Positions 30,788 through 32,341 of a stretch of 64,000 bases of DNA are shown here, piece after piece. The notes under the pieces were generated by a model, which saw only the letters and a program-made list of their open reading frames with translations, ran no database searches and was not told the DNA's origin. The stretch is from NCBI GenBank assembly GCA_001466705.2, contig LATX02000068.1:186001-250000 (forward strand), given 5' to 3'. Positions within the stretch are counted from its first letter, which is position 1. Each line of letters starts with the position of its first letter. The position numbers were made by a program, and so were the translations under genes. This DNA is from Moniliophthora roreri (taxonomy: Eukaryota; Basidiomycota; Agaricomycetes; Agaricales; Marasmiaceae).

Positions 30788-32341
30788 CTACTTTTCTACG
30801 TCTTGTTCATCAACTCTTCTGTAGTAGCCTCGGCTACTTGCCAGGAACTCCTTCGCCTTCCTCATACCTCCAAAGTATACGAACGCGGTTCCAATGGCTC
30901 CGAAAAAAACAATGGCAAAAAAGAAGTTGCGGAAGAAATGGGATTCGACATCGTCAGATGGAATTGCAGAGGTGGAGGTAGACGAGGCGGTAGAGTTCTT
31001 ATCCGGCGTCGCCTCGACTGCGGGAGTAGTTGGAATTGTTGGTAGAGCCTGTTTACAAGCAAATCCATTTTATTTGTATGACGTTTTTATTTCACAGAGG
31101 AAAGCTGATCAGAGCTCAGCATGAAGAGGTACCTGGTTTCCATCAGCATCTGTTTCCAACTCGAGTTCCAGCTACAAAGGTCGTAAGCGTCGTTATTCCT
31201 CCTCGAGAACATAAGACTTGCCTCTCCACAGTCGGCGATGATAACATCCTCGACAGGTCGGTCAGACGGGCCCTTCTTCACATTTTCTGTACGAATGTAA
31301 GATGTCATATTGCTAGGAGTTGGGTATGATTCTTACCAATTGCATGGACAATGTCCATGCCATCGAGAACTTTGCCAAAGACAACCTGAGGTAAATGGAT
31401 AATCAGTCACTCACACATTGAACAAAGCAAGATCACCTACATGTCTACCATCCAACCAGCTAGTGACGACGGTGGTGATAAACTGAGGAATTGGATACCT
31501 CAGCTACGAGGCAAGACTTCCACATCCCTTGACTTACGAATTGTGAGCCTTGAAATCATTCATCAGCACATAACCTTGATTTCCTAATAACAGTGACCTA
31601 CCATTGGTATCCTTTCCAGCGTTAGCCATAGACAAAATACCAGGCGCGGTGTGGCGGAGTTTGCTATTGAAACCCCCTAGTGAGTAGATGTGCAGGTGGT
31701 CTAAGACGTCAAAACGTACAAGTTCTCGTCTGCAAACTTGTTTCTGTAGATGGACTATGTTTATCGGTGTAAGTGGCAAAATTCGTGGAGCTATAAAGAA
31801 CTCATACCTTTCCACCAGTTCCGTCACCATTAGCTGGAGTACTGTTAATGACTCGTCTTGCGCAGAAAGGACCGAAACTCACTGAAGTCACCGCCTTGGA
31901 TCCTAAGAGCATGTGAGCAGGACGGTTGTATGACACGCTTGAGCCACTCACATAAAGTCCTTGATAACACGGTGGAACTTGGAACCCTTGTATCCGAAGC
32001 CCAGCTCCGTACCATCCTTTTTCTTGCCAGTAGCAAGAGCACGGAAGTTTTCAGCAGTTTTAGGGACAGTCTACGAAACATGAGAATGAGTTCGAGCACG
32101 GGCGAAAGGCACGTACTCCTCCGAAAAGACCCAAGGTAACTGTAGTTTGCAAAATTCAGTGCGTAATTTTTGGGGGGGAATGAAAGTTCCACGAACTTCT
32201 TCCAAGGTCCTTGTCTCCTTGCTTAATGTCAAAGAAGATCTTGCTGGTAACCTTGGGACCCTTGGCGGCATCAGCAGGTTGGGCTACAAAAAATGCAGCA
32301 AGGGTAATGACAAGGGCAACGAGAGAAATACGACGGAACAT
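30788..32341 (-). CDS. ER peptidyl-prolyl cis-trans isomerase (cyclophilin B type) with optional membrane anchor
   Basis: Secretory-pathway cyclophilin, roughly 300 aa in the fully spliced form. A signal peptide (MFRRISLVALVITLAAFFVA) is followed by KVTSKIFFDIKQGDKDLGR, LFGGTVPKTAENFRAL, YKGSKFHRVIKDFMIQGGDF (catalytic Arg, Phe and Gln), LSMANAGKDTNGSQFFITT and GRHVVFGKVLDGMDIVH. The C-terminal extension after ADCGELELETDADGNQ depends on the last intron (31049-31132). If spliced, an 80-90 residue tail carries a transmembrane segment (FFRNFFFAIVFFGAIGTAFV) and a basic end (MRKAKEFLASSRGYYRRVDE), stop at 30788-30790. If retained, the protein ends VPLHAEL. One intron (31172-31221) has a GC donor. 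It assists folding of secretory proteins. The gene is head-to-head with DBP7. Confidence 0.9.
31049..31132 (-). other. Last cyclophilin intron with an in-frame HAEL-stop (possible regulated retention)
   Basis: 84-nt intron with donor CAG|GTACCT and acceptor AAACAG|GCTC. The frame continues into it as VPLHAEL and then a stop at 31109-31111. Splicing joins GNQ to ALPTIPTTPAVEATPDK and the transmembrane tail in the same frame (phase 0). Confidence 0.7.
31172..31221 (-). other. GC-AG intron in the cyclophilin gene
   Basis: IADCGE must join LELETDADGNQ. The junction is GGAGAG|GCAAGT ... TTTGTAG|CTGGAA, 50 nt, with AG|GCAAGT being the textbook GC-donor consensus. There is no GT donor at the position the conserved CGEL requires. 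Confidence 0.8.

Follow-up and report, generated by a model that had tools for sequence, protein, structure and literature searches.

Two readings of the last intron give a cyclophilin B gene of Moniliophthora roreri alternative ends, an ER-retrieval-like peptide or a predicted membrane anchor

We analyzed a stretch of 64,000 nt of Moniliophthora roreri DNA (hereafter, the window). Its contig is 560,533 bases long and belongs to a 59.4-Mb assembly of 154 contigs, which was the genome searched. M. roreri, which causes a rot of cacao, is placed in the order Agaricales by taxonomy. A cyclophilin B gene composed of 13 exons is encoded on the minus strand from 32341 to 30788. The gene model was built by hand from the splice-site motifs and the cyclophilin reading frame, and was then compared with deposited proteins. 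The features of the gene are as follows.

32197 to 32341, minus strand: exon 1, with the start codon at 32341 and a hydrophobic N-terminus; the isomerase domain (PF00160) begins here
31222 to 32139, minus strand: exons 2 to 11 including the introns between them; isomerase domain, one open frame across all junctions
32139-32117, 32070-31952, 31902-31883 and 31833-31808, minus strand: exons 2 to 5
31754-31720, 31663-31602, 31548-31538 and 31482-31441, minus strand: exons 6 to 9
31385-31337 and 31286-31222, minus strand: exons 10 and 11
31172 to 31221, minus strand: intron 11, a GC-AG intron whose counterpart in the paralogue starts with GT
31133 to 31171, minus strand: exon 12, the last exon common to both forms, which ends GGAAACCAG
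31049 to 31132, minus strand: intron 12, 84 nt, phase 0, with 5′ end GTACCT and 3′ end CAG; retained or spliced
31109 to 31132, minus strand: alternative coding end VPLHAEL-stop, an ER-retrieval-like peptide; the same or a similar end is present in relatives
31127 to 31132, minus strand: 5′ splice site GTACCT, which overlaps the V and P codons
31086 to 31091, minus strand: AATAAA hexamer in intron 12, starting 18 nt past the stop
31069 to 31074, minus strand: second AATAAA hexamer in intron 12, starting 35 nt past the stop
30788 to 31048, minus strand: coding part of exon 13 with its stop; Ser/Thr-rich stalk, transmembrane segment and basic tail ending DVEK

The encoded protein matches Pfam PF00160 at residues 37-198 (169.7 bits against a cut-off of 21.7), and its best solved relatives are structures of human PPIB (PDB 3ich and 8k0f). 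The motifs FHRVI..FMIQGGDF, SQFFITT and WLDG.HVVFG, which from the roles of their residues we take to be the active-site motifs of cyclophilins, are present in both sequences of the PPIB alignment. The N-terminus is hydrophobic and resembles a signal peptide by eye; a plasmid search with this N-terminus gave no match. No RNA family (at the gathering threshold) and no tRNA was found in the 64,000-nt window. Over 212 residues, our gene model, read as the membrane form of the window, shares 99.5% identity with P0010, the deposited soluble protein of M. roreri MCA 2997. At 31754-31720, in the isomerase domain, the window encodes SIYRNKF and P0010 has SIYGNKF; this is perhaps a strain difference. 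Two other deposited M. roreri models depart from this gene structure. P0015 reads through the GC-AG intron 11 and thereby loses both alternative ends, probably by an annotation error. P0004, which was deposited from an M. roreri contig as long as that of the window, possesses the membrane tail, but its exons are mis-joined and part of the isomerase domain is absent, so that the model looks damaged.

The last intron can be read in two ways. When intron 12 (31132-31049, minus strand) is retained, the frame continues as VPLHAEL to a TGA stop codon at 31111-31109 (minus strand) and the protein consists of 219 aa. When the intron is spliced, the frame runs into 31048-30788 through FFRNFFFAIVFFGAIGTAFV and then the basic end RGYYRRVDEQDVEK; this protein consists of 298 aa and ends in a stalk, one hydrophobic helix segment and a basic end. 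The HAEL of the retained reading conforms to the C-terminal pattern of HDEL-class proteins, [HKR]x[ED]L. The frequency of such an end by chance was calculated from 400,000 random introns of 84 nt, which started with GT and were otherwise drawn from the dinucleotide composition of the window. The pattern [HKR]x[ED]L stood right before the first in-frame stop in 6.5 per 10,000 of these introns, and the narrower pattern [HKR]xEL in 3.3 per 10,000. As controls, we read the other 11 introns of the gene as if retained. Nine of them reach a stop, with no retrieval-like end among the nine; in introns 7 and 11 the frame meets no stop before the end of the following exon, so that these two offer no end to judge. 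The original prediction, which was made from the DNA letters of the window, had described a phase-0 last intron that reads VPLHAEL-stop if retained, and this description is exact to the base. The in-frame tail that it expected after splicing, with a transmembrane segment and a basic end, is borne out by exon 13, and its estimate of about 2 in 10,000 for the chance of such an end is of the same order as both simulated values.

The tail added by splicing resembles those of many deposited proteins. The best 19-residue stretch of the tail has a mean hydropathy of 2.06 and is followed by a basic stretch. In the 77 membrane forms listed from the databases (described below), the corresponding value ranges from 1.94 to 2.93, a range that is partly set by construction because the group was picked partly by hydropathy above 1.6. 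The 15 residues past the helix are more positive than the 15 preceding it in 75 of these 77 proteins, a Y[RSKNT]x[VLIM] motif lies near the end in 71, and 55 end in D[LVI][EV]K. Ser, Thr, Pro and Ala make up half of the stalk on average. This make-up suggests a type I anchored protein, with a predicted topology that places the isomerase in the lumen. In a search of the whole genome, exon 13 itself was the sole match to the membrane exon, and no second copy was found.

Three database searches listed at least 214 distinct proteins among their matches. Sorting of the 214 by their tails gave 91 soluble relatives of the type described here, 77 proteins with stalk and helix, 12 with other short tails and 34 with neither tail. 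The last group, as defined by the sorting rule, includes the M. roreri models P0004 and P0015; the proteins with other short tails include P0161, which ends VPFHAM, and P0002, a fused model in which stalk and helix lie internally. Among the 91 soluble relatives listed, 63 end in HxEL, 24 in RxEL, two in [HR]xDL and two in RTGL, both of the latter being the M. roreri paralogue. Thus, an [HR]x[ED]L end is present in 89 of the 91, although these shares are not frequencies, since 85 of the 91 came from the search whose query ended in VPLHAEL. What appears to matter is not the shares but the recurrence of a retrieval-like end over wide distances. Membrane forms occur in the Agaricales (this gene), the Russulales (Lactarius vividus, P0067) and the Polyporales (Daedalea quercina, P0183). 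Soluble forms were found in the same genera, namely Lactarius (P0126 and P0157) and Fomitopsis (P0179), in which taxonomy places D. quercina. A soluble protein from Leucosporidium (P0209), which belongs to another subphylum, ends IPLHAEL and does not possess the Val at the splice site. Most relatives among the matches listed appear with one form only.

A possible 5′ splice site within the retrieval-like peptide recurs in the soluble relatives. Val is present at position -7 in 86 of the 91 listed. In all 86, position -8 is Gln, Glu or Lys and position -6 is Pro; in the five relatives with another residue in place of Val, position -8 is Ala in three, Pro in one and Lys in one. Because codons for Gln, Glu and Lys can end in AG, this pattern is compatible with an AG|GT donor in that position. 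The donor in the relatives is read from protein letters, and the soluble proteins are related and mostly share the ending of the query, so that they represent a pattern and not independent test points. Since Val and Pro codons follow each other, any donor at this place has the form GTNCCN, which does not contain the usual G at +5. In the M. roreri gene, G is present at +5 in 11 of the 12 donors, and the last donor, GTACCT, is the sole exception. On the membrane side, the first residue added after the junction has codons starting with G in 70 of the 71 membrane forms with a placed junction among the matches listed; the junction could not be placed by pattern in 6 of the 77. One of the 70, P0208 from Panaeolus cyanescens, is doubtful and departs from this simple picture: it is a membrane form that keeps VPLRV before the stalk, as would result from a donor lying a few codons downstream. 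The retrieval peptide thus seems to be written across a 5′ splice site that is weak by construction, and we infer that the soluble reading would keep the donor weak and the splicing leaky.

In two related species, both forms have been deposited, and within each species the two come from contigs of equal length. In Marasmius oreades, the soluble P0022 and the membrane form P0006 ("variant 2") have a core that is 100% identical up to the junction. The same is true of Stygiomarasmius scandens, in which the soluble P0046 is called "variant 2" and P0012 is the membrane form. A metagenome pair (P0127 and P0105), which comes from contigs that differ in length, is also identical up to the junction. 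According to the M. oreades genome paper, Illumina transcriptome reads served both assembly and annotation, and annotation was performed with Funannotate. Because transcriptome reads were used in this way, the M. oreades variants are probably RNA-based. In contrast, the 2014 gene models of M. roreri were merged by EVM from ab initio predictions and protein alignments; therefore, P0010 alone is no proof of a transcript. What we observed are the two readings of the intron, the junction that they share and the repeated presence of both ends among relatives. The proposal of the original prediction that one gene may give both an ER-retrieved and an anchored isomerase is thus supported by comparison, through the two species with both forms deposited. 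It had also named loss of the HAEL frame in close relatives that keep the membrane tail as a result that would speak against the idea. Such a loss was not seen among the deposited soluble models: those of M. roreri MCA 2997, S. scandens, Dendrothele bispora and M. oreades all end in VP[LI]HAEL. Near relatives such as Paramarasmius palmivorus have the membrane form alone among the matches listed. The one close case of HAEL loss is the M. roreri paralogue, which ends VPLRTGL and is also without the membrane exon.

This paralogue (locus L009, positions 3078-4339, on contig C110 of 2,138,362 bases) shows 78% DNA identity to the gene over 1,337 aligned positions. The same exon pattern is possible in it, and its product is deposited as P0025 and P0121. 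The paralogue has kept the soluble reading only and has lost the consensus retrieval end (RTGL), and its product may be secreted. An HDEL-receptor gene is present in the same genome, and an HSP70 of this genome, which we regard as BiP-like, ends in HDEL. The sequence HAEL is absent from the text of the HDEL-receptor paper that was examined.

Taken together, these comparisons make it likely that one cyclophilin B gene makes two forms, however the short mRNA arises. The switch between the two ends is probably real and old, with the same pair of endings in related mushrooms. The short mRNA could arise in two ways, plain retention of intron 12 or cleavage and polyadenylation inside it, and both fit. 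We consider intronic polyadenylation, which would yield the same two proteins, a serious possibility at somewhat under even chances. Intron 12 contains two AATAAA hexamers, 11 nt apart and 18 and 35 nt past the stop, and two or more such hexamers occur in only 2.5 per 10,000 random 84-nt stretches. However, the pair was spotted after the fact, and the A+T content of the intron is 63% against 52% in the background of the window. Moreover, polyadenylation signals of fungi are degenerate. Intron 12 is also the longest intron of the gene (84 nt, against 46-57 nt in the others). The paralogue can be cited on both sides: being without the membrane exon, it presumably ends its mRNA past the same place, but no AATAAA was found in the 200 nt past its last shared exon.

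We also considered that most species possess two separate genes and that the junction merely marks a disagreement between annotation pipelines. We constructed a quick tree of the shared part without a mixture model. It comprised 169 rows, of which two represent the window; a single soluble row shorter than 195 residues was excluded. Membrane forms were scattered among soluble ones, with 41 label changes (40 without the window rows). Two ancient paralogous genes would give one label change and were rejected as an explanation, and a tree in which the membrane forms were held as one clade was rejected by the AU test (p 1.9e-6). In 200 shuffles of the labels, 47-65 changes were counted (mean 56.35), and the observed 41 lies below all of them. 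Such clustering is as expected if relatives are annotated alike, and also if some lineages have one form only. It is in keeping with separate genes, as are the predominance of single forms among the matches and the presence of the soluble-only L009 in M. roreri. However, the membrane forms do not make one clade, two species have pairs with an identical core, and both ends lie in one gene within the window. If pipelines did disagree at the junction, both candidate ends would still recur, and this recurrence is itself the finding. We therefore regard two separate genes as improbable.

The membrane exon might instead be a lineage addition that is decaying in M. roreri, with the soluble HxEL end as the working form. 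The Leucosporidium protein, whose soluble end without the splice-site Val lies outside the mushrooms, and the absence of the membrane exon from the M. roreri paralogue would both suit this view. However, exon 13 has an open frame that continues that of the preceding exons, and its C-terminus resembles that of most of the 77 relatives, including the Y motif found in 71 of them, so we give decay little credence.

Finally, it is very unlikely that the membrane form alone is real, with the short form as splicing noise and HAEL as a chance match: in Schizophyllum commune, splicing events are most often intron retention (33% of events; PMC5034255) and one window has many introns, each with the small chance of such an end calculated above, but [HR]x[ED]L recurs in the soluble relatives listed, including that of Leucosporidium, beyond chance even with the bias of the query.

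In our preferred reading, one gene would produce two isomerases of the secretory pathway with 212 residues in common. Without use of the last 5′ splice site, translation would continue for seven codons into the intron and end in VPLHAEL, and the HDEL receptor would bring the resulting soluble lumenal enzyme back to the ER. Use of the site would add the stalk, a single membrane helix and a basic tail on the cytosolic side, which would make the protein a type I anchored isomerase. The balance between the two would be leaky because the V-P codons (GTN CCN), which double as the splice site, bar the usual G at +5. No exon junction follows the stop when intron 12 is retained, since no further intron lies downstream. 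In other organisms, the lack of an exon junction after the stop would spare an mRNA from decay. Expression of both forms in M. roreri, ER retrieval of the one, anchoring of the other and leakiness of the site are what we infer for this gene. A wider version of this reading is tentative, and we hold it with less than even confidence. In this version, retrieval peptide and 5′ splice site share their bases across the mushroom class; GTNCCN can never be a strong donor, so that a coding need sets the leak; and the cell shifts the isomerase between lumen and membrane with folding load or development. The M. roreri duplicate, without the anchor exon and the retrieval end (RTGL), may then serve as a secreted isomerase.

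Dual targeting by alternative splicing is already known, and the proposed switch would be an instance of it in which an ER-retrieval tag and a membrane anchor are the alternative ends. In the switch between membrane and secreted immunoglobulin M, the 5′ splice site is bypassed by intronic polyadenylation to give the soluble end, and splicing gives the anchor. The soluble end of immunoglobulin M is a secretion tail, whereas that of cyclophilin B would be an ER-retrieval tag; of a poly(A) site of the immunoglobulin M type, the cyclophilin B intron offers two AATAAA hexamers only. Human PPIB and Drosophila NinaA belong to the same enzyme family and to the secretory pathway, and NinaA is membrane-anchored. 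To our knowledge, the PPIB and NinaA genes have one end each, whereas the M. roreri gene carries both. The fungal enzymes GAPDH and PGK acquire a hidden C-terminal peroxisomal signal by alternative splicing or read-through. As proposed for cyclophilin B, they gain a short C-terminal targeting peptide; their signal is peroxisomal and that of cyclophilin B would be for ER retrieval, and in cyclophilin B both alternative ends would be targeting devices. GAPDH and PGK are named as conserved splicing events in PMC3597508.

The same paper (PMC3597508) describes intron retention in PTC7 of budding yeast, with the nuclear envelope or the mitochondrion as the destination of the product. As in cyclophilin B, one fungal gene has one form with a membrane helix and another without it (PMC3597508). 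However, the arrangement differs: the retained intron of PTC7 encodes a helix near the N-terminus and has no in-frame stop, whereas the cyclophilin B intron encodes a C-terminal retrieval-like peptide with a stop and the helix is added by splicing. Spliced and retained mRNAs of PTC7 are both translated (PMC3597508), as we propose for those of cyclophilin B. In another species, duplicates of PTC7 split the two forms, and the M. roreri paralogue resembles this division of splice forms between duplicates, which is described for PTC7 and SKI7/HBS1 (PMC3597508). Few fungal genes are described there as having two splice forms that are both functional and conserved (PMC3597508). Among the titles and abstract openings listed from the open-access literature, we found no report of a cyclophilin or an ER protein with both ends. 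For Schizophyllum commune (PMC5034255) and Coprinopsis cinerea, the main text of the paper on alternative splicing contains neither the word cyclophilin nor the word isomerase.

From the present comparison, annotation pipelines seem often to deposit only a single form where two exist; therefore, secretome and proteome work may miscall the location of cyclophilin B. The gene also offers a straightforward case for testing what limits are placed on splicing when a protein signal and a splice site share the same bases. If the proposed switch is true, it would be an old case, with both ends present in three mushroom orders, in which a folding enzyme is moved between the ER lumen and the membrane by one splice choice.
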